Shown piece after piece: positions 741 to 22,955 of a stretch of DNA of 24,678 nt. The position numbers and the translations under genes were made by a program. Numbering within the stretch: the first letter of the stretch is position 1; every line of letters begins with the position of its first letter. The notes under the pieces are model-generated. The model made no database searches, was not told the DNA's origin, and saw only the letters and a program-made list of their open reading frames with translations. The stretch comes from Cochliopodium minus (lineage: Eukaryota; Discosea; Himatismenida; Cochliopodiidae). The stretch lies in NCBI GenBank assembly GCA_024220525.1, contig JAMYWO010000248.1:15045-39722 (forward strand), in the 5' to 3' direction.

Positions 741-1160
741 TTAAAATATTTTGCTTTGAATTTTCTGAATGGATAAACATTTGAATTGAAATCTCTTTTT
801 GCAAACTTCATCAAAAAAAAAAATATAAAATTTAAAAGTTTGATACCAAGAGATTATCAACATGAAATCATTAATTTAGAAAAAATTTTCAGATTCTTTT
901 TAACTTTTGTTTAAAATGTTAATAAGTGAAAAAATTTGGAATAAATTGAGTTTTACAAAGAAAATTTTAGTTCTTAGGTTTACATCACAGGAGACAAATT
1001 TGGTATTGTAATTTTTTGTTAGTAATTTTTTGAATACAAATTTTTTATGTATTTGAAATTTTTTTCATTTTTTTAAATATTTTTTTCATTTTTTTAAAAA
1101 TTTATTTTTTTTTAAAGTAGTCAATGTGATATTTTATTTATTAGAATCGAGACATGAGGA
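741..1160. other. AT-rich spacer between two tandem minus-strand genes
   Basis: About 420 bases of A/T-rich sequence lie between the stop of the signal-peptide gene (1161) and the start of the membrane-anchored gene (740). It presumably holds the terminator of the first and the promoter of the second. I find no RNA gene and no convincing exon. A short open stretch around 780-815 on the minus strand could not be joined to either gene. Confidence 0.5.
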
Positions 1161-3033: not shown

Positions 3034-6000
3034 ATGAGGAAAAATTCAAAATCAAATAATTTCGATCCTCCATATAACAAGAAAAAGACAACAACGAAAA
3101 AGAAGAATAAATTAACATTCACACCTTTGATAGCAGAGGATAAAGTGGATGATAAAAAGAAAGATAATAAGAGGAAAAGATCTTCTCCAACAAAAAGAAA
3201 AAATCCACCAAGAAATGGAAGATCAAAAAAAGAGATATCATCAGATGAAGAGGATGATTATATCTCAATAGAAGAGGATGTGGAACTTGAGTCGAAAAAT
3301 AAAAAAATTTCAACGAATAAAAGTACTGAAAATAAAATAACTGACAAAAATAATAGTAAAGAGAAAGATAAAAAGAATTTGAAGGAGGGGAATGGAGCAT
3401 TGAGCAATAATAAAAATAAAGATGTAAATAATAAAATGAATGGAGTGAATAAAACAACGAATATCAATAATGACAACACAGATAGCAATAATATCAAGAA
3501 TCATAAACAAAATGTACAAAATGTACAAAGTATAAATTATTTATCTTGCATAGAATGTAAAGAGAAAATATCATTGGAGAAAATAGGGATAATGAAGGAA
3601 ATCTCGAATGAAATTGCAAAACATATCACATTCAAATGTGATCAATGCAGAAACAAAACAGCAACAATACAAGTAAAGGATGTTGTTCAAGAAACAGCAA
3701 CCGCACCTAGAAAGCCTTCAGAAAAAATTTTGCCTGAAAAAAAGATTGAAAATCCAAACGAAAAAACTGTTCCTGAAAAGAAACGAGGGAGATCAAAAGA
3801 TAAAAAACAAACAGATGGTAATTTTTTTTTCTTTTCTTTAAAACTTTAATAGTTTCTACAAATTATGATTTATGAAGTACATTTAAACTTTACTTTAATT
3901 TTTCAAATTAAGTTAATAATGTTATTCTTTAAAAGAAAAAGATGAAGTTCTAAAAAAGGAATTAGCAAAGAAAAAGACTCCTACCAAGAAAACACCTGAA
4001 CCTAAAAAAATTGTTGAAAAAAAACCGATCAAAGAAAAGGAAAAGGAGAAAGAAAAAGAAAACAAAGAGAAGGAAAAAGAGAAAGAGAAAGAAAAAAATG
4101 AAAATGAAAAAGAAAAAGAAAAAAAGGAAAATGAAAAGGTGAAGAAACCTGCCAAAGAAATAGCCAAAGCTGAGAAAAAAACGCTGAAAGAAAAAGAAGC
4201 TGTGAAGAAAAAAACACCAGAGAAAAAAACTCCCGCCAAAAAAACACAAGAGAAAAAACCAACAGAAGAAAAAGTCGAGGAGAAGAAACAACCAGCCACA
4301 GAAAAGAAAAAAGAAAAAGAAAAGTCTCCTCAGCTTAAAAAGTCTCCTGAAATACCCACCAAGAAATTGCCCGGTCAGTTCATAGACGATGTAATTGATA
4401 TTGTAGGTGACGAAGATAAAGAAGATATTGAAGAGAAGCAACCAAAAGATTTGCTGTCTTCTTTCACAATCAACAATGGAGATACTTCTAAGACACATTT
4501 CATTTCGGAGTCCAAATTTAAGAAGATCAACAAAGAAAATGTCTCCAAAATGAAGAAGACAAACTCTTTGTTTGATTTCACTTGTGATTCTAAGACTACC
4601 ATGGGTGACAGACAAGAGAATCAAGACTTTACTATTTACTCTCAAAATTCCCAAGATCCTTTCGTTTGTTTTGGTGTACTTGATGGTCACGGAATTGGTA
4701 AAAAAGCATTTAAATAAAATATTTCATTATTTTAGAACATGAATTAGTTATTATTTTAAAATGTGAATTTTTATTTTTTATTTTTTTTATTTTTCTTTAT
4801 TTATAAATATTTTTATTTTTCTATATTTTTATTATTATTTTAAAATGTTCATGTTTTTCTTTCATTTTATTTTTATTTTTAAAGGTGGTTTACAAGCAGC
4901 TAGCAATTGTACAGATATCATTCTATCCAAAGTTTGCGAGGCATTTTTAAATTCTAAAATAGATGATGAAGATATCATTATGGTAAAAAAAAACAAAATA
5001 ACCAAAAAATAAAATTTAAAATTAAAACTTATTTTAAATTATTAATAACTTAATTTCTTTCATTTACAATAAATTTTTTAAAGGAAAACATAAAAAAAGC
5101 GTTTGCAGAGACTCAAATAGATCTCTTGAAGGTCCTTTCCAAAATGCCAGAAGAATGCGGAACAACCGCACTGCTAATGGTGATGTCGGGCGACCTGCTC
5201 ATCACCTGCAACGTCGGAGATTGCCGAGCGCTTATCTTCCGAAAGAGCGAGGAAAAGGGTTCCAAGTCATTAGATTGTTTCGAACTTTCTAACGATCATT
5301 CTCTTGATAGAGAAGATGAAGTGGAGCGTATTACTTCTACTACTGAGGGACAGGTTGTGGAGGGTTCTTCGGGCGATTGGAGGCTCATTCCTTCTTCTGC
5401 TGCTTACGAGTTGAGCATCGTGAAGGCCAAGAAGCTTGCTTTGGGCATGTCTAGGTCTTTTGGGCATGTCATCCTTTCTAAATTTGGTGCCATTTGTGAA
5501 CCTGAATTTACTGTTCATCAAATTAAAGATGGTGATATGTTGGTAAAAAAAAAATGTCTTTATTCATTATTTTTTAATTTTTTTTATAATTTTTTTTTTA
5601 ATTTTTCTTTATAAATTTTTTTTTTTAATTTTTTTTTTTAATTTTTTTAATTTTATATTTTTTTTTTTTCATTGAATGCTCACGAAACCATTTTCTAATT
5701 TTTATATATAATTTTTAATTTTTATTTGATCTTTTAATTTTCTTAAATTTATTATTTATTTTTTTTTCATTTAAGGTTGCTGCTACGGACGGAGTTTGGG
5801 GTATTTTGGAAAATGACGAAGTGGGACACATTGTGGATGTTTACAGAAGCAACCCTTCTTCCATCGCAAGCAGAATCGTAAGCACTGTGAAGCAAAGATG
5901 TTTAAAAGATGACACCACATGCGATAACACCACCTGTTTGGTCACTCATTTCACCGAAAAAAACAAAATCACTCCCAAAAAATCAACTCCGAACAACAAA

Positions 6001-6255
6001 ACAACACCAAATAATAACAACAACGTCAAAATAAACGATGAAAAAAAAATCATCAACGAAAAAAATAATTCCGCAATTAAGCCTAAAGTCCCTGAAAAGA
6101 CTTTCAATGAAAAAAAAGAATCTTCTACTAGACGATCCACTCGTTCTTCTAAAGATACCAAGGCCAACTTTTTTGTCATCGAGGATGATGACGAAGATGA
6201 GGAGAGTTTTAAGGGTGTGGATGACGAAGAGGATGATGATTATTCTGATGATTAA
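3034..6255 (+). CDS. PP2C-family (PPM) Ser/Thr protein phosphatase with long basic N-terminal region
   Basis: Five exons: 3034-3817, 3936-4697, 4885-4982, 5084-5542, 5776-6255 (TAA); phases match and the product is 860 aa. The metal-dependent PP2C domain spans about 475-760. Motif 1 is GDRQENQD (D486-D492), followed by DGHG (511-514), GTTALLMV, NVGDCRALIF, LGMSRSFG, ATDGVWG (D706 G707) and DTTCDNTT (D751 N752). The acidic residues that bind the two Mg/Mn ions are therefore present. Residues 1-470 are low complexity: Lys/Asn/Glu-rich, then KTPAKKT-like repeats resembling linker-histone tails. They contain a Cys4 cluster, C172-x2-C175-x26-C202-x2-C205, that may bind zinc. The tail (about 830-860) is strongly acidic. 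The basic and acidic ends suggest a nuclear or chromatin-associated enzyme (inference). Exon 4 is clearly richer in G+C than the rest. The gene converges on the small Hsp gene, 205 bases between stops. Confidence 0.9.
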
Positions 6256-8161: not shown

Positions 8162-11100
8162 ATGCAAAATAATCTCAAGATTAAAAAGAATAGTTCTTCT
8201 GGGCAATTGAATTTGTTATCTTGGATAGTATGAACTTGATATAATATTTTATTTAAATTCAAATTTTTTATTTTGTCTCCAACACTTCTATTACAGCAAA
8301 ATATAACCATCGAATATGGATTGAAAGTTGACAATTTTACTACATGTTGGAAAGATGGAAGAGCAATTTGTGCGGTGGTACATTATTTCTTTCCAGATGA
8401 AATCGATTTGAACAATGGTAAACCCATTGATCAATATCTACCTTCAAAATTTTAATATGATCTGAATATCCGTTAATTATAAAATTTATTATTTTTTTTT
8501 CTTTATTCAAACAAAATATCACCACAAGCGATATAAATAAGAAATCAAACCTTCCACATATTCTTTATACTTTTTAAAAATCATTTTGAGTTCACATATT
8601 TCTCCATTATTATTATAGTGATGGTAGATACGAAAGAACAAAAATTAGAAAATTTGAAGATGGGATTTGATTTGGCAGAAAAACATGGAGTAACCAATTT
8701 GATCGATCCAGAAGATATAGAATATGCAGATAAAAATACAATCATGACATATCTGGCAACAGTGTATCACGCATTCAAATCACTCAACAAAGGAATTCCA
8801 AAAGAAAAAAACAAAAAGAAATTTCTTTTCGAAAGAGTAAAACAAAGAAACGATACATCAAGCCCTAACATCGACAAAAAACAAGTCATAGAAGAAACTA
8901 CTTCAAGTCCAAAGACAATAAGCAAATCTCCCGTTTCTCCTACAAATTTATCTAGCCCTACAACAAAAGTATCAAGTCCAAAGAAAACACCAAACCCAAG
9001 TCCAAAAAACAAAATCTCAAATGCCAAAACTTCTAATCCAAACAAAACTCCCAACAAAACTCCCAACAAAAATTCTTCTAATAATTTAGAGGAAGAAAAA
9101 GTTGAAAAAGAAAAAGTAGAAAAACAATCAGAGAAAGAAAATGAAAGAAAAGACAAGGAAACAATTGAGAATTTACAAAGGGAAATCGAGAGGCTTATGG
9201 TTAATCTCGAAAAAGAAAAGCAAGAGAAACAAAAGCTGGAACAAGAGAGGAAGGAGAATGAAGAAGTATTGGAGAAAACTTCAACTGTTTTTTCTTCAAA
9301 ATCAAATGAAGATACCACAAATGATGTAAGTTTTTATTTTTTTTTGAAATTTCTTAATTTAATTTCAATAAAGAATGAAATCCCAAATGACATTAAAGTA
9401 AGGGTAAAAAAGTTTAAAAAATTAAAAAAAAAAGTTTTAAATTTAATTAATTTAATGAAAGAGAGTAAGAATAAACAGTGATCTTCCTTTTGAAGTCACA
9501 AACCTAAAGAAGAAACATAACTCGGTGAAAGAAAGCAGAGAGAAAGTGTTAATACCCAAACAACTTGTGTTAAACAACATACACGTCAAAACCACCAACA
9601 CGGAAGGTGCTCCAAAGACTCTGGAAAAAGGAAATGGGAACAATGAAAAGACTTTAAATCCCAACAATGTTGTTCACATGAGACCAAGATCAGTAGATTT
9701 GAAACCTAAAGTTTTTGAAAATAAAGATTTGATTGATTTGGTCAAAGTTTTGAAGGATTATGAAAATGAAGTTTCCAAACCTGCAAGAGAAAAAGTACAT
9801 GCTTTGTGTGACTTAATTGAGGGAAAGAATGTTGAATCTCTTCCTGATTCTCTTGACCAGATAGAAGCTTTGTTCGTTCCTGTCACTAGAAAAAACAAAA
9901 TTGCAAGTTTAGAGAAGGAGTTGGACGGGAAGGATAACAAATTAAATGAGTTGGATGAAGAGTTGAATGAGAAAAACAAAGAAAACAAACATTTATTTGA
10001 ACAGATAAAAGATAAAAAATCTGAACTTGAGGAGAATAAAAAAGAAAAAGAGAAATTGAATGAAAAACTGGATAATTTGTCGGATGAACTCAAAAAGTTA
10101 AAGCTTGAGGAAGAAGAATGGAAGAAAAGGGATGAAAAGAACTTAAAGGAAATAGAATCTCTCAAAGATCTCAACGAGACGTCAAAGGATCAACACCAAA
10201 AAGAAGATGAAGGAAAAGTAAGCAAAGAGGATCTCCAAAAGGCACTTGATGAAATAGAAAAGCTCAAAAATGATCTTGAAGAATCACAAAAACTAAACAA
10301 TAAAAACGCAAACCTTTTGAAGGCATTAAAACTCAATCTCGCAAAGATCTCCAAGAAAGAACACGAAGCAACACAGAAAGCTTTTGTGCTCGGAAAAGAG
10401 AAAGAAGAGGACCTTAAAAAAATAGAAGATCTCACCAAAAACGAAGAGGATTACAAAAAGAAAATGGTAGATCTCGAAGATAAAAACAGAGAACTCGATG
10501 AATCTAAAATCTCTTTAGAGAAAGAAGTGGGAGATCTCAAACGAAAGTTGGAAAAGTTGGAAAATCTTCTTAAAGAAAACAATGAGTTGAAAGAGAAGCA
10601 AGGTGACGAAGATGAGAAATTGAAGAACAAAGTTGGAGAGAAGGAGGAGGAGATCAGGAGTCTCGTTGAAGAGATCGAGAAGCTGAAAGACGAAAACTTG
10701 GAGAAGGAGGAGGAGATCAAGAAGGCGAAAGATGATGTCTCCAAGATCCTTTCCAACCTCGAGGACATGATCAGCAGAACCAAAAAAAAGCTTGAAACCA
10801 ACATTAGCACTCTCGAAGAAAGCCTACGAAACTACGAGCAGGAAAGAGAGCAGCTTTTGAGGGAAAATGGAAAGTTGAAGGAAGAAAATGATCAACTCAA
10901 AGAAAAGTTGAAAGATGATTTGAAGAACAAGGATCTTGATTTGCAGAAAGCAGAGTCTGAAAAAGAACAACTTAAAAATGATTTCGATAGTTTGAAAGAA
11001 GAGGATGAGAAGCTGGCGAAAGTTCTTCAGGATACTTTGGCTGATTTGGAGAAGATTGAAAAGAAATTTGAAGAAACCAAAAATGAAAAGAAAGAGAAGG

Positions 11101-13700
11101 ACGATGAAATTGATGTTTTGAATGAGACTTTAGGAGAGAAGATCGAAGAAGTGAACAGTCTTAAAAGAGATAATGAAAGAAAGAAAAAGATGATCGATGA
11201 ACTCAAAAATGATAACAACAATAATGAACAAAACGAGAAGGCTTTGAAAGAGAAGGACAATGAAATTGATGTTTTGAATGAAACTTTGGGAGAGAAGATC
11301 GAAGAAGTGAATAGTCTTAAAAGAGATAACGAAAGAAAGAAAAAGATGATCGATGAACTCAAAGAAAATGAAGATCAAATGCAAAAAAATTTAAAAGAAA
11401 AAGATGATCAAATTGATGTTTTGAACAAAACTCTTGATGAGAAGATTGAAGAATTAAATAACCTCAAAAGAGATAAAGAAAGGAAGGAAGAGATGATCGA
11501 TGAACTCAAAAAAGATAATAACAATAATGAACAAAACGAGAAGGCGTTGAAAGAAAAGGAAAATGAAATTGATGTATTGAACAAAACTTTGGGTGAGAAT
11601 ATCGAAGAAGTAAACAGTCTTAAAAAAGAAAATGAAAGAAAAGAAAAGATAATCGATGAACTCAAAGAAAATATCAAAGAAAATGAACAAGAAAAGCAAA
11701 AAGAATTGAAAGAAAAAGAAGATCAAATTGATGTTTTGAACAAAAATCTTGATGAGAAGATTGAAGAATTAAATAACCTCAAAAGAGACAATGAAAGAAA
11801 GGAAGAGATGATCGATGAACTCAAAAATGATAATAACAATAATGAACAAAACGAGAAGGCTTTGAAAGAAAAGGACGATGAAATAGACGTTTTGAACAAA
11901 ACTTTGGGTGAGAATATCGAAGAAGTAAACAGTCTTAAAAAAGAAAATGAAAGAAAAGAAAAGATTATTGATGAACTCAAAGAAAATATCAAAGAAAATG
12001 AACAAGAAAAGCAAAAAGAACTAAAAGAAAAAGACGATCAAATTGATGTTTTGAACAAAACTCTTGATGAGAAGATTAAAGAATTAAATAACCTCAAAGA
12101 TAACGAAAGAAAGGAAAAGATGATAGATGAACTCGAAGAAAATAAAATTGATCCAAACAATCTCACTGAAAAAGAAAAGGAAATAGATCAGCTCAAAAGA
12201 GAAATAGAAGATTTAAAAGAAAAAGAAAAGACCAGGTCTGCATCTTGGGAAAACCCAGAAGATTTGCTCAGCTTCAAACAAACGAACGCAGAGAATCTCC
12301 AACAAAACTTTAATGACAAGTTGAGACAAGACAGAAACGTTCAAGAACTCCCGCCACAAGAAAAAGGAGAGAAAACTGAGGAGAAGAAAGATGAGGAGAA
12401 GATGAAGGAATTGAAGATGATGTTGAAGCAATCTCAAAAAGAACTTGAAGAAGAAAGGGAAAAGAATCAGATCCTTCAGGCTGGAGAGGAGAGGATCTTC
12501 GAAAAGTTGAACGAGGAAGTCAAACTCCACAAAAAAACGAAGAAAACGTTGGTGATCGTCAACAAAAAGTACATCAAGCTGCAGAAACAATACAACGAGA
12601 TCACCATCAACATCAACTCTTCTTGGGAACAAAAGTACTCCGAAATGGTAAAGTTGTTGCAGAGAAAAGCTGATCTGCTTGAAAAAGACAAGGAAGAGTT
12701 GGAGAACTGGTTGGATCACTCCAAGAAGAATTACCTTGTTGAGATGGAGCTCAAAAACAAAATTTCCAAGGAAAACTATGATTTGAACACTTCTAACCAA
12801 GATCTTCAGAATGAGGTCGAAAAGTTGAGGGATCAGATGAATCTTAGCAGGGAGAATTCTTTCAACAACTCGAGTTCTTTGATTGATTTGAAAGATGAGG
12901 AGATTGAACGTCTCAATCAGGTAAATCTTGATCTCCGAAACAAGTTGGAGGATGTATCTCATCATAATCAAGTGGATGGCTCTAAATTGAAGATCCTCAG
13001 AGAGGAGAACACCTTTTATCTAAATCAGATCAATCAGCTCCACCAAATCATAAAAGACAACGCACACGAAATAAGATCTCTCAAGAAAAACTCTCCTCTA
13101 AACAAAGATGATACCACTTACGAGATTAAAAAGACCAACACCACAAAGATGACCATCATTGATTTTCCGAGATCAAGTAGCAACAGTGTTAATGATAGTG
13201 ATGATTCAATCGATTACAAGAAGCAAATCGAAGATCTAAGATTCAAATTGAGTTTGAAAGAATCTGACTTTCATTCCATTGTCTCCACAAACAATTCTCT
13301 CAAACAAAAAATTGAAAAGTTAGAAAATATTAACAATTCACTTAACAACTCACAGAACAACTCTCTTCTCCAATTCGATTCTCCTTTACCTCATTTTAAA
13401 CAAACCCAAAATGGTTCATCTTTCTATCAAATGCAAAACAATTCACCTTTACAACAAAATAATCGTTCTTTCAGAAACAGTGAACCAGTATCTTCAAATT
13501 CCAAATTTTCTTACGAGAACAAAGGAAGCAAAATTGATGCTGAAAAATACAACATGTTGATTGACTTTATGAAAATTTTGCAACTCAAATTGGAGAGAGC
13601 CCAAAGAAGTGACAACAACAATGGAAATAATAATGGTAGTCACCAAAGAATTCCATTACCCAACACCAATTTTGAACCATTTGAATCTTCAGATGATTAA
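8162..13700 (+). CDS. CH-domain protein with very long coiled coil (about 1700 aa)
   Basis: Exons 8162-8227, 8297-8417, 8619-9325, 9374-9397 and about 9510-13700 (TAA). The first exon gives MQNNLKIK...LNLLSWI. A single calponin-homology domain follows (about residues 14-115): VDNFTTCWKDGRAICAVVHY, FPDEIDLNN, LENLKMGFDLAEKHGV, LIDPEDI, IMTYLATVYHAF. CH domains bind actin or microtubule partners. After a Ser/Pro/Thr/Asn-rich linker comes over 1000 residues of Glu/Lys/Leu heptad-like coiled coil, including seven about 52-residue repeats, then an Asn/Ser-rich tail ending EPFESSDD. It is probably an elongated cytoskeletal or scaffold dimer. The junction into the last exon is uncertain: an acceptor after CTAAAG at 9509 keeps phase 0, whereas the better-looking CAG at 9476-9478 does not. 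Two adjacent genes instead of one is a possible alternative. A second CH protein starts at 19785. Confidence 0.8.
11094..12140 (+). repeat. Seven tandem ~156-bp coding repeats in a 315-bp higher-order pattern
   Basis: The codons for (E/Q)IDVLN recur at 11106, 11262, 11409, 11565, 11724, 11880 and 12039, spaced 147-159 bases apart. Two sub-types alternate: EIDVLN(E/K)TLGE...EEVNSLK and QIDVLN(K)..LDEKI(E/K)ELNNLK. Every second copy is spaced 315 bases for the later units (11409/11724/12039 and 11565/11880). Neighbouring higher-order units are nearly identical at DNA level, which points to recent unequal crossing-over. All spacings are multiples of three, so the frame is kept. Confidence 0.85.
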
Positions 13701-16934: not shown

Positions 16935-19293
16935 CTATTTCAAGATTATATCAATTGGAGAGTTTTCAGGAATGATGAAAAGATCATTATCATTCTCTAT
17001 TGTAGTATTTTCGTATTGAATGGTGAATTCTTTGGTTGTTGATTTTTCAAAATACTGCTTGAAATTCTCTCTGATTCTTTCTTTGAAGGTTTCCAATAGA
17101 ATAGGAACATCATTGATCTTCTTTGATGCAAATCTTTTCCCCTCTCCATCAAACAATTGCAAGGTGAAAGATTTGATTAAGGATTGATTCTCCTGTAGAT
17201 CAATGGTGATTGGTTTATCATACTCTCCATTTCTTAGATTGAAATAGGTATTCTCGTCACATTTATCTGTTACATTTTTTCTGGGGTTTGCAATCATCTT
17301 ATCATTGCTCAAAAGATTCAAATCGACTTGCTTTCTCCTGAAATAGATGATGGTTGCTTTTTTGAAGCCAGGATGGAAATAGACGAAAGTCATTCCTTTG
17401 TATCTATCCAAGGTATTTTCTTCAGGATAATTGATGGTGAAGTTGATCAACTGAAAATTTTTCAGTTTTAAGAATGAATTGTCTCCATTCAAGCAGAACC
17501 TATTATAATCTTCATTCATCAAGCTCCCATCAATCAGAAATTCGAAGCCAAATTGAAAAGATGAATTGACATAAAAATCAATGAATCCTGCTTTTTTGGT
17601 TATGATCACTTTCTTATTTTTTTTCAACATTCCTCCCTTTTTGATGATTGTTTCCACAGATGAATCAGTAACTTTAGTGACTAAAAATTTGAGTTCATTA
17701 ACTAACAAGGTATCTCCCTTTTTGACAAGATTGATCAGATCTTTATTCGTGACAGCCACTTTAGTGTTATTTCCTGGAACCTTTTGATCTATCAAAAAAG
17801 AAAACAACTTCCCTTTCTCGAGCTTTTTCTCTTTTTTGAGATTACATGTTTTAATATCGATTGATTCAAAAACTTTCTTCATTTGCTTTCCAACTTCAGG
17901 GAACACACTTTTTCCAAGAAGATTAATGGCAATCTGAGAGAAGAGATTTTGGTAGAAAATCTCTTTTGGTCTTTTTTCTTTTTCTACTTGATACAATTTT
18001 GGATCTAATCTTTCTTGGAGTCGATCATAGGGAAGTAATCTCAAAAAATCATTGTGATTTCGTCGATATCTTTGTAGATTTTTTTTGATTCCGACAGTGG
18101 AGCCAACATTCTCATATAAAAGAGCTTCACATTTCCATATGCCCAAGTTATTTGATTCTCTTGTCTTTCTACAATTTTGCACACACCTATTTTCCTTAGG
18201 AAATTAGATGTCTCCTCACTTACTGAAATAAGGGAATCTTTAGATTCCTTGTCCAAGATTTGAGTTGGCGAATTTATCAATCTTTTGATTGCTTGGATAG
18301 CTTCTAAGCGATTGGTGTTGAAATCAGTATCATTATAATCTTTCATCAAATCATAGAAGATTTTGTAAGTTGTGATTTTGTTGAAATAATGATTGCTCAA
18401 AACATAATCGGTGATTTCCTTCTTATCAATCCCAAGCCAATCAGTTTTATATTGGGAAAATTGTATCATGACTTGATAAACAGTTTGGCTCAATAGGCCA
18501 GGATGTCCTTTTAAAAAAATTTATTTTTATTTGTGAATAAAGGATAAATTAACATATTACCATGTGTGAACTTGAAAAAAGATAAAGGCAAGTTAGTTAG
18601 ATCTGGTCCATTTCTTTTCTGGAGATTTTTCATTGCCAAATTGTATTCTACCTTGCTAAATAAAAGATATTCAATCCCGAGTATTTGCTCATCTGGCAAT
18701 GTGATGCTTGAAGATATCTTTCCCAATGTTTTTTCTCCATGAGTTGCAAGGATCAATACATGGATTTTTCTATCTTTTTTATTTTGGAGTTGTTTCAGAT
18801 CAAGTTCCAATTGCTTGAGACCATCTAATATACTCTCTCTTTTTACTTCTTCATTGTTTTCCACCTTTTCCACCTTTTCATCCTTCTTTTCAGTGAAAAT
18901 ATTTTGAGCATCATCAATTATATAAAGCAAATGTTTTTCTCCTTTGTATTTCTTCAATGCTTCGGCAAAATCATCGAATCCAGTTGTTTGCTTGAATATT
19001 TCCAAAGATCTTTGTGGGGTGGTCATGTTATTGAAAGAAATTATCTTATAATTTTGTGTATATTCTTTTGAATTTTTCATTAAATGAATTAATGATGATT
19101 TTCCGGTTCCTGATGGGGATCTTATGTAAATTATATTCTTATCATCTAATTTTTGCATCAAATCCAATATTTTTTCATTTCTCTCGCAATAAAAATAGGC
19201 ACTCCAAGTTAATCCTTCAGTAGAATGTTCATATTCTATTTTCTTTGGATCATTCTCATCTTTATATTCTATTTCCTTTCTCTTCTTATTCAT
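16935..19293 (-). CDS. P-loop NTPase fused to PD-(D/E)XK-like nuclease, Crinkler/RHS-type architecture, with apparent frame break
   Basis: Minus strand, ATG at 19293, TAG at 16935; about 760 aa. Intron 1 is 18560-18508 (phase 1). Residues 58-67 carry Walker A (RSPSGTGKSS), 122-130 Walker B (LLYIIDDAQ). Then come LATHGEKTL, ITLPDEQILGIEYLLFS and, across the intron, FTHGHPGLL, which follow the layout of NTPase-nuclease proteins abundant in some fungi and protists. A helical region follows (LRLLPYDRLQERL...), then GFIDFYVN with FGFEFLIDG (17590-17526), resembling the Asp...Glu core of the fused restriction-like nuclease; the canonical Lys after Glu is not obvious. The last about 95 residues (ITIDLQENQ to PIDIILK) look beta-rich, possibly ubiquitin-like. 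The reading frame changes between about 18110 and 18041. A 26-nt GT-AG intron (18097-18072 region) would restore it; an assembly indel or gene decay are alternatives. A role in self/non-self conflict is inference. Confidence 0.7.
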
Positions 19294-19784: not shown

Positions 19785-22700
19785 ATGGAAATATCAAACG
19801 AAGATTTAAAATCATGGGTTCAAAAGATAACAAATTGTAAAAAATAAAATAAAATAAAATATATATTTTCTTTTAAAAGGGATATATCTCCTTTTAAATA
19901 AAATATGAGATAATTAAATGAGGAAATATAGTTGATATATCTTCAAATATTTAAACATATTAATGAATATTCAAAATTATAAGTATATAAAGTAGAAGTG
20001 GAAAATTTTACATATGATTGGAAAGATGGGAAAGCATTCTGCTGTTTGATACATTATTATTTCCCAGAGGAAATTAATATGAAAGAGGTGAGAACAGATT
20101 CGCTAATAGATTTCCTCGAAAATCTGAATATGGCCTTTGATATCGCAGAAAAACATCGAGTGAAGAAAACATTAGTTACAGAAGAGATGATGAATCCAGA
20201 AGAAGAGTTGATAATAAAGTATCTGAGGGAGATGCATCAAAAATTCAAGGATTTACAAGGAGGGAAGGCTATTAACGGGATCAGTGAGGAGGATGAGAAG
20301 GAGAGGTTGGAGAAAGAGAAAGTGGAAATGGAGAAGGTGAAGAGGGAGCAGATTAAAGAAAGATTATTGAAGGAGAGAAGAGAGAAAAGGAGGCTAGAGA
20401 GATTGGAACAAGAAAAATTGGAGAAGGGAGAAACACAAGAAAATAAAGAGATTGTGAGTAATAATAGTGGAGGAGAGGAAGAAAAGGAAAGGTTGGAGAA
20501 GGAAAGAGTAGAGAAGGAGAGGTTGGAGAAGCATGAACAAGATCAAATTAGGAGGGAGCTGATTAAAGAGAGGCTTTTGCAGGAGAAAAGGGAGCAAAGA
20601 AGATTGGAAAGGGAGAGGCAAAGGTTGGAGCAAGAGCAGCTCGAAAGAGAAATTTTAGAAAAAAAAGAAAAAGAAAGATTGGAGAAGGAGAGAGTAGAGA
20701 AGGAGAGGTTGGATCATGAGATACAAGAAAAGGAAAGAATAGAACAGCAAGACCAAATTAGGAGGGAGCAGATTAAAGAGCGGCTTTTGCAGGAGAAAAG
20801 GGAGCAAAGAAGATTGGAAAGGGAGAGGCAGAGGTTGGAGCAAGAGCAGCTTGAAAAATTAGAGTTGATTGAAAAAGAAAGAATAGAGAAAGAAAAATTG
20901 GAAAACGAAAAACTTGAAAACGAAAAAAAATTGGAGAAGGAGAGACTAGAGTTAATTGAAAAAGTTAGATTAGAACAAGAAAAAATAGAGAATGAAAGAA
21001 CAGAGAAAGAGAGACTTGAAAAAGAAAAAATAGAGATTGAAAGATTAGAAATGGAAAGATTAGAAAGAGAAAGGATTGAAAAAGAAAAATACGAAAAAAT
21101 AGAAATGGAAAGATTAGAACAAGAAAAAATAGAACAAGTTAGATTAGATGAGGAGGAAAGAGAGAGAGTAGAAAAGGAGAGACTGGAACATGAGAAGAAT
21201 GAACAAGAGAGGATCAAGAGGGAGCAGATCAAAGAGAGGCTTTTGCAGGAGAAAAGGGAGCAAAGAAGATTGGAAAGGGAGAGGCAGAGGTTGGAGCAAG
21301 AGCAGCTTGAAAATCTAGAATTGATTGAAAAAGAAAGAACAGAGAAAGAAAGGGTGGAGCAAGAAAGAATTTTACAAGAGAAAAAGGAGAAGAGGAGATT
21401 GCAAAGAGAGAAAGAAAGACTTGAACAAGAAAAAATAGAGAATGAAAGAATAGAGAAAGAAAAAATAGAGAATGAAAGATTAGAAAAAGAAAGATTAGAA
21501 AAAGAAAGGGTGGAGAATGAACGATTGGAGAAAGAGAGGCTTTTGAAAGAAGAACAAGAAAAAATAGAAAATGAAAGAATAGAGAAAGAGAGATTTGAAA
21601 AAGAAAAAATAGAGAATGAAAGATTAGAAAACGAAAGATTAGAAAAAGAAAGGGTGGAGAAAGATAAATTAGAAAAAGAAAGGCTTGAAAAACAAGAAAG
21701 AATAAAATTAGAAGAAGAAAGAGAAGAAAAAGAGAGAAAAGAGAAGGAAAGAATAGAGAAAGAAAGGTTGGAGCAAGAAAGAATATTAGAGGAGAAAAGG
21801 GAGAAGAGGAGATTGCAAAGAGAGAAAGAAAGACTTGAAAATGAAAGAATAGAGAAAGAGAGGATTGAAAATGAGAAAATAGAGAAAGAGATACTTGAGA
21901 AAGAAGAACAAGAAAGAGAAGAAAAAGAGAGAAAAGAGAATGAAAGAATAGAGAAGGAAAGGTTGGAGAAAGAAAGAATTTTACAAGAGAAAATAGAGAT
22001 GAGGAGATTGGAAAGAGAGAAAGAAAGAATTGAAAGTGAAAGAATAGAAAAAGAAGAAAAAGAAAGGAAGGAAAGAGAGAAAGAGAGACTTGAAAAAGAA
22101 GAAAAAGAAAGGAAGGAAAAGGAAAGAGAAGAGAAGCAAAGAATAGAAAAAGAAAGGCTTGAGAAAGAGAGGATTGAAAATGAGAAAATAGAGAAAGAGA
22201 GACTTGAGAAAGAAGAACAAGAAAAGAAGGAAAAAGAAAGAATCGAGAAAGAACAAGAAAGAATAGAAAAAGAAAGAACGGAGAGGGAAAAGCAGGAAAA
22301 GAATGACCAACGAAATTTAGAAAGAAATGGAGTTAATGGAAGCAAACACAAGAATGGAGAACTGAATAATTTTGAGAGTAAAGAGGAAGATAGAGAAGAA
22401 TTGATTGAACAAAACATTATTGTATATAGTAAAAACACAAAAAATCTGGAAATAAATGAAGAAACAAATTTTGAAGAAGAAGAAAACTCCAATTTATTTT
22501 CAAACACAAACAAAATATTGAAAAATAAATTGGAGAATTCACAAAGAGCACTGGAATCTCTCAAAGAAAATCTCAAAAAAACATCTCAAGAAACAGAAAA
22601 TTTACTTTATCGCCTCAATAATCGAAGTAACAAAAATTCTCCCAGAAGCAGTTCCTCTCCAAAGAAAAAGGATAGAGAAAACGGAATCATAAATAATTCT

Positions 22701-22955
22701 CCTCTCATCAAAACTTCTATTGTTTGCAACCTTTATTCTCCAAATGAGATTTACATTTCTGGCTCATTTAATGATTGGAAATCTGATCTCCTTTCTGAAA
22801 AAAACGATAAGGATCTTCTCATTTTCGATATTTCATTACAATCAGGCAAAAAATATTATTTCAAATTTATAGTTGATGGTAAGGTGAGATTAGATCACAC
22901 TTATCCTGTAGATTTGGACGAAAATTTGAAATTAAGTAATGTAATAACTTTGTGA
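19785..22955 (+). CDS. CH domain - long ER/K helix - C-terminal AMPK-beta-type glycogen-binding (CBM48) fusion protein
   Basis: Exons 19785-19836 and 19993-22955 (TGA), phase 1; 1004 aa. The first exon encodes MEISNEDLKSWVQKITN and joins LEVENFTYDWKDGKAF, completing a single calponin-homology domain (about 1-105: FCCLIHYYFPEEINM, LENLNMAFDIAEKHRV, IKYLREMHQKFKDL). Residues about 120-770 are almost only E, K, R with Leu/Ile at short intervals (ERLEKERLEKER, KERLLQEKREQRRLERERQR), typical of a long charged single helix or coiled coil. A mixed linker and Ser/Pro/Lys patch follow. Residues 926-1004 match the glycogen-binding module of AMPK beta: VCNLYSPNEIYISGSFNDW, LQSGKKYYFKFIVDG, then a proline/aspartate turn and SNVITL at the end. 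The CH half suggests cytoskeletal binding and the CBM48 half starch/glycogen binding; a rod linking the two is inference. No kinase-subunit-binding C-terminal AMPK-beta domain is present. Confidence 0.85.
20551..21314 (+). repeat. Three near-identical ~95-bp coding blocks
   Basis: Blocks at about 20551-20648, 20761-20857 and 21217-21314 encode the same segment, IKERLLQEKREQRRLERERQ followed by RLEQEQLE, with only scattered base changes. They are dispersed rather than strictly tandem, with divergent ER/K-rich sequence between them, so they look like products of segmental duplication within the helix-coding exon. Confidence 0.8.

Follow-up and report, generated by a model that had tools for sequence, protein, structure and literature searches.

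A predicted Cochliopodium minus protein with a calponin-homology domain, a long charged rod and a C-terminal CBM48 module

A gene on the plus strand of contig C248 (19785-22955 of the window, which is the whole 24,678-nucleotide stretch analysed here, G000:C248:15045-39722, from a genome of 44.65 Mb in 598 contigs) raises the question of what a protein might do that carries a calponin-homology (CH) domain at one end, a module of the glycogen-binding CBM48 type at the other, and a very long charged segment between them. A preliminary description of this DNA had proposed a rod tying glycogen to the cytoskeleton. We examined the gene model, the nature of both ends, the periodicity of the rod and the relatives of the gene in the same genome.

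Gene structure and the two end domains

The genome is AT-rich with short introns, and the product of the gene (hereafter the main gene) is predicted from the letters of the DNA to comprise 1007 residues encoded by two exons (19785-19836 and 19984-22955). The preliminary reading of one continuous frame fails at the ATG at 19785, from which the unspliced frame runs into a TAA after 20 codons; removal of the predicted intron (19837-19983) regains the first CH helix and leaves the frame open to 1007 residues. What stands of that reading is exon 2, a single 985-codon open stretch that carries the rod and the CBM48 module as well as most of the CH domain (24-108 of its 109 profile positions). Three introns read by eye in two related genes (NBR, a neighbouring relative in the window, and a gene on contig C176) likewise start with GTAA and end with AG. 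The features of the locus are as follows.

19785..19836, plus strand: exon 1, ATG and first CH helix, 17 codons and one base (spliced frame open to 1007 residues; CH match at residues 4-106)
19837..19983, plus strand: predicted intron, GT..AG, 147 bases
19984..20249, plus strand: remainder of the CH domain, to residue 106 (PF00307, 71.8 bits spliced, 51.9 bits for exon 2 alone)
20475..22328, plus strand: E/K/R rod free of glycine and proline, 618 residues (182-799), probable single alpha-helix (composition, pair and periodicity counts)
22503..22616, plus strand: possible short heptad coiled coil, around residues 858-895 (window 856-890, p 0.027; possibly chance)
22740..22949, plus strand: CBM48/AMPK1_CBM module (PF16561, 45.7 bits; AMPK-beta2 and -beta1 structures)
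8297..13700, plus strand: NBR, with a CH domain split over two or more exons and a heptad coiled coil downstream of it (profile matches, periodicity, CH tree)

Elsewhere in the window, frames of a divergent neighbour gene lie at 16935-19293 on the minus strand, the first of which (18514-19293) matches an nSTAND1 P-loop NTPase (31.2 bits, cut-off 27.1), with no Pfam match above cut-off in the second. Exons at 4139-6255 on the plus strand resemble, by eye, a PP2C-type phosphatase with a charged N-terminus.

Both end domains named in the preliminary description were recovered by Pfam, in the order given there. The first 140 spliced residues match the CH profile (E 6.3e-20), well above its curated cut-off of 26 bits even for exon 2 alone, and the last 87 residues match the AMPK-beta-type CBM48 profile (E 7.5e-12; curated cut-off 26.8), which scores 39.9 bits on the whole of exon 2. 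Among solved structures, the CBM48 module finds AMPK-beta2 (E 2.2e-5) and AMPK-beta1 (E 2.5e-5). The protein is no AMPK-beta subunit, as the CBM is its last domain and AMPKBI (PF04739) is not among its matches up to E 0.1.

Over the 697 rod codons examined, the coding frame contains no stop, whereas the remaining forward frames contain 52 and 53, and letter shuffles give a mean of 51. On the opposite strand, the three frames contain 22, 2 and 13 stops, and a Ser/Phe/Leu-rich open frame of 620 residues lies over the rod (20714-22576, minus strand), which we take as the shadow of a low-complexity purine-repeat rod. Since one antisense frame has only two stops, openness of the rod frame is by itself no proof of coding; the plus frame, however, is the one that encodes the recognised domains on either side. 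An assembly or gene-model artefact joining two genes is conceivable, given that purine repeats are prone to mis-assembly and that the frame of another gene, on contig C417, is broken in a similar repeat. It is nevertheless highly improbable, because one uninterrupted reading frame links most of CH to the rod and the CBM48 module, and because contig C176 carries another gene of this order.

The CH domain is of one particular kind. It scores 57.8 bits against CH2 of alpha-actinin 1 versus 10.8 bits against CH1, and its closest solved relatives are alpha-actinin CH2 domains. A tandem CH1-CH2 actin-binding domain was ruled out: the main gene contains one CH match, which is CH2-like, and the other two matches on C248 belong to NBR. 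The CAMSAP_CH profile also matches above cut-off (37 bits, cut-off 27), a match that alone proves nothing. Actin binding by single CH domains is called controversial in the excerpt of PMC7240100 used here, according to which the binding of an isolated utrophin CH2 to F-actin is about 1000-fold weaker than that of CH1 or of both together, deletion of the CH2 domain takes SMTNL1 off F-actin, and the single CH domain of EB1 is able to bind tubulin. Being single and CH2-like, the CH domain of the main gene belongs to the kind that binds actin weakly on its own, which weakens the reading as a glycogen tether.

Composition and periodicity of the rod

The charged stretch between CH and CBM48 measures about 670 residues, chiefly E, K, R, L, I and Q, in agreement with the ER/K-rich stretch of about 650 residues described before. 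An alpha-helix rises 0.15 nm per residue, so that the longest segment free of glycine and proline (residues 182-799) would reach about 90 nm if helical throughout (618 residues, ~93 nm). Single alpha-helices (SAHs) are rich in E, K and R, have no hydrophobic seam and place opposite charges three or four residues apart (PMC5347031, excerpt). Composition, absence of a seam and the i,i+4 pairs of the rod agree with this description (residues 118-790; 240 attractive versus 56 repulsive pairs, z 10.9), whereas repulsion prevails among its i,i+3 pairs (z -3.4). In the same residues, i,i+1 pairs are attractive (z 11.6) and i,i+5 pairs repulsive (z -14.9). A five-residue unit accounts for this whole set, and the i,i+4 pattern therefore does not show selection for salt bridges.

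Hydrophobic residues follow the same spacing. Within residues 166-783, hydrophobic pairs are in excess at +5 (66 versus 22.7 expected) and +10 (53 versus 22.5) and fall below expectation at +3, +4 and +7. Spectral power at 3.5 residues amounts to 0.1 in the rod compared with 17.2 in the NBR coil, which served as internal positive control in the same analysis, and a heptad coiled coil was thereby ruled out for the rod. A helix with hydrophobic residues at every fifth position has no seam, which favours a single alpha-helix over a coiled coil; the earlier idea of a single helix is upheld in this respect, and by the attractive i,i+4 pairs, and the rod is probably of this type as judged from its periodicity. 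A sliding heptad scan returned one of 53 windows below p 0.05 (residues 856-890, p 0.027), located just before the CBM48 module, and this one may be due to chance. The same scan of the C176 frame returned four of 41 windows below 0.05, all within residues 521-705 and before its CBM48.

The coding strand of the rod consists of purine-rich repeats, with 21 overlapping tandem-repeat rows. Pairwise comparison of three near-identical 32-codon units gives 2-3 synonymous and 1-2 nonsynonymous differences, but nine wider pairs of near-identical pieces carry 46 nonsynonymous versus 19 synonymous differences. This selection test does not show constraint on the rod letters. The rod might hence have arisen as a side effect of expanding purine repeats, with neutral or species-specific drift behind the CH-CBM48 pairing, an explanation to which the repeat rows, the excess of nonsynonymous differences and the nearly open antisense frame all lend weight. 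We consider it unlikely, as the coding frame is free of stops where its forward neighbours have more than 50 each, and as C176 keeps the same order at domain identities of 45% (CH) and 40% (CBM).

Relatives in the genome and residues for glucan contact

A genome search with PF16561 yielded seven matches among nine candidates, namely the main gene and loci on C176, C417, C76, C4, C240 and C88. The C176 gene shows the order of the main gene: CH exons (38.7 bits), a charged rod (i,i+4 z 7.9) and a CBM48 as last domain (28.9 bits in an 819-residue frame, cut-off 26.8); a TAA flagged inside the match is the frame's own stop. The CBM48 modules of these two genes are reciprocal best matches among the seven (75.5 bits; next best 42.7 and 57.0). 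The other loci have different layouts. On C417 (11000-20000; 1760-4694, minus strand), a membrane-like segment, recognised by eye, precedes an E/K/R rod and a C-terminal CBM48, in a frame broken several times in repeats through assembly error or gene decay. C76 (150000-159000; 2348-2965, minus strand) encodes an AMPK-beta with AMPKBI, C240 (10500-19500; 1288-2195, minus strand) holds a piece of a CBM48 followed by one of a calcineurin-like phosphoesterase, and C4 (312600-327500) contains a 3436-residue frame with kelch repeats, CBM48 and SPRY. A search for viral relatives of the CBM48 gave 33 pattern matches, none of which was confirmed, and no match in phages.

CH domains are far more numerous (90 PF00307 matches among 103 candidates, 84 above cut-off), and one match lies within a 17,951-residue open frame (C143, 53574-53816, minus strand). 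Searching with the CH piece of the main gene gave seven matches among 21 candidates, including C64, NBR and C176. We built a CH tree of 16 rows from the main gene, NBR, C176, C64, one alpha-actinin row and 11 other CH pieces, the last taken from 15 picked among 30 CH loci after four had been discarded by eye as too distant. The four CH-rod genes form one clade (96/95), within which the main gene branches first, with inner forks (93/85 and 88/77) under the starred level. No PF16561 match was found in NBR, nor in C64, where the sequence covered reaches about 800 bases past the frame. With this clade and the reciprocal-best CBM48 modules, the CH-CBM48 fusion looks old and kept. One old fusion followed by two losses would be the simplest account, with two gains as a possible alternative.

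Residues for glucan contact were read against AMPK-beta1 and -beta2 under three MAFFT settings. At the positions of W100, K126, W133, L146, T148 and N150, the main gene has W, K, V, N, K and S, thus keeping two of six, identically in all three settings, with an alignment that is unsure around L146 and T148. C176 likewise keeps two (W, K, L, E, Q, T). Four of six are kept in C240, three in C88, two in C417 (both tryptophans), one in C4 and none in C76. Mutation of W100, K126, W133, L146 or T148 markedly reduces glycogen binding of AMPK-beta1 (PMC2642990, excerpt), and N150 is named as critical in the excerpt of PMC4032982. By contact residues, then, the module falls outside the glucan-binding AMPK-beta CBMs while belonging to their family by profile. 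Because W133, L146, T148 and N150 are absent, strong glucan binding is unlikely, and weak binding is possible, as far as residues can indicate.

The missing contacts bear on a quite possible rival explanation, in which the CBM48 end no longer binds glucan and serves as a protein-interaction fold; the protein would then be a CH-rod scaffold that terminates in an immunoglobulin-like fold and has nothing to do with glycogen. The same four residues are missing from both CH-fused modules, and the organism's own AMPK-beta, without a single contact residue, demonstrates that contact-free AMPK1_CBM domains exist here. A plant parallel is AKIN-beta1, which keeps W100 and K126 alone of four residues compared and for which a different function was suggested (PMC4032982, excerpt). 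Against this explanation, both CH-fused modules have retained W100 and K126 despite a domain identity of 40%, although the keeping of W100 may be structural, given that its motif persists in six of the seven CBM48 domains of the genome. The organism also has glucan genes. Glycogen phosphorylase was matched in eight pieces on C29, a GT5-type synthase on C8 by two matches (34.2 and 24.8 bits; frames at 35.3 bits, over the cut-off, and 21.0 bits, under it), CBM20 by seven matches, and Alpha-amylase_C by one (positions 1-39 of 95, 31.7 bits); the profile search of the genome gave no match to GT3 synthase (PF05693). Alpha-glucan metabolism is thus likely to occur in this organism, judging by its gene content.

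A candidate long-reach scaffold and comparison with known systems

The reading that we prefer, at a probability of roughly 0.4, is that of a putative cytoplasmic long-reach scaffold with a CH dock, an SAH spacer and a CBM48 tip. The CH domain would dock at one site, either cytoskeletal or on an adaptor protein, and a mostly monomeric, salt-bridge-stabilised single helix of about 90 nm would act as spacer. At the far end, the CBM48 module might bind alpha-glucan weakly or by way of many copies, or its partner might instead be a protein of glucan metabolism. The tether of the preliminary description, from glycogen to the cytoskeleton, is a possible and attractive special form, yet both ends are of the weaker kind and the residues give it no support, with two of six contacts and a single CH2-like CH domain. 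More doubtful is an extension of the scaffold to a family of glucan-positioning rods, in which a CBM48-tipped single helix would carry interchangeable anchors (a CH domain to reach the cytoskeleton in the main gene and C176, a membrane-like segment to reach membranes in C417) and a low-affinity glucan end, present in many copies and able to let go. A true tether would directly link storage glucan to a cytoskeletal site, a connection for which we know of no described protein, and would offer a handle on glycogen placement in a single-celled eukaryote. Even in a protein that binds no glucan, the rod would be a very long candidate SAH and a test of how far such helices reach, and two genes of the same order in one genome provide material for asking whether rod length matters.

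A literature search, which did not extend to annotated eukaryote proteins, found no described protein combining CH and CBM48, and each known system resembles the main gene in part. PTST/FLO6 is alike in being a targeting or scaffold protein with a helical region followed by a C-terminal CBM48, and differs in its chloroplast location, a GBSS-binding coiled coil and the presence of both glucan tryptophans, mutation of which abolishes starch binding in the double mutant; no CH domain is named in the excerpt of the source (PMC4339375). The main gene has lost one of the two tryptophans (W133 is V), and its rod lacks heptads; a short stretch that lies between rod and CBM48 may form a heptad coil or may be a chance result. 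The tether logic recalls STBD1 (genethonin-1), which combines a membrane anchor with a glucan-binding module at its opposite end (PMC5358331, excerpt). STBD1 carries a membrane segment and CBM20 in place of CH and CBM48, and the layout of C417 comes closer to it than that of the main gene. To our knowledge, STBD1 has no giant rod. With AMPK-beta the main gene shares the PF16561 CBM but not AMPKBI, and the genome has its separate AMPK-beta on C76. Among solved CH relatives alpha-actinin is best, in the company of lone CH2-type domains (smoothelin, MICAL, EHBP1); the main gene differs from these in that no CH1 partner was found and a CBM48 stands at its end. The rod itself resembles SAH spacers such as that of myosin-6 in its E/K/R richness, its opposite charges four residues apart and its lack of a seam, and it is several-fold longer than the 98-residue SAH designs and joins other end domains (PMC5347031, excerpt).
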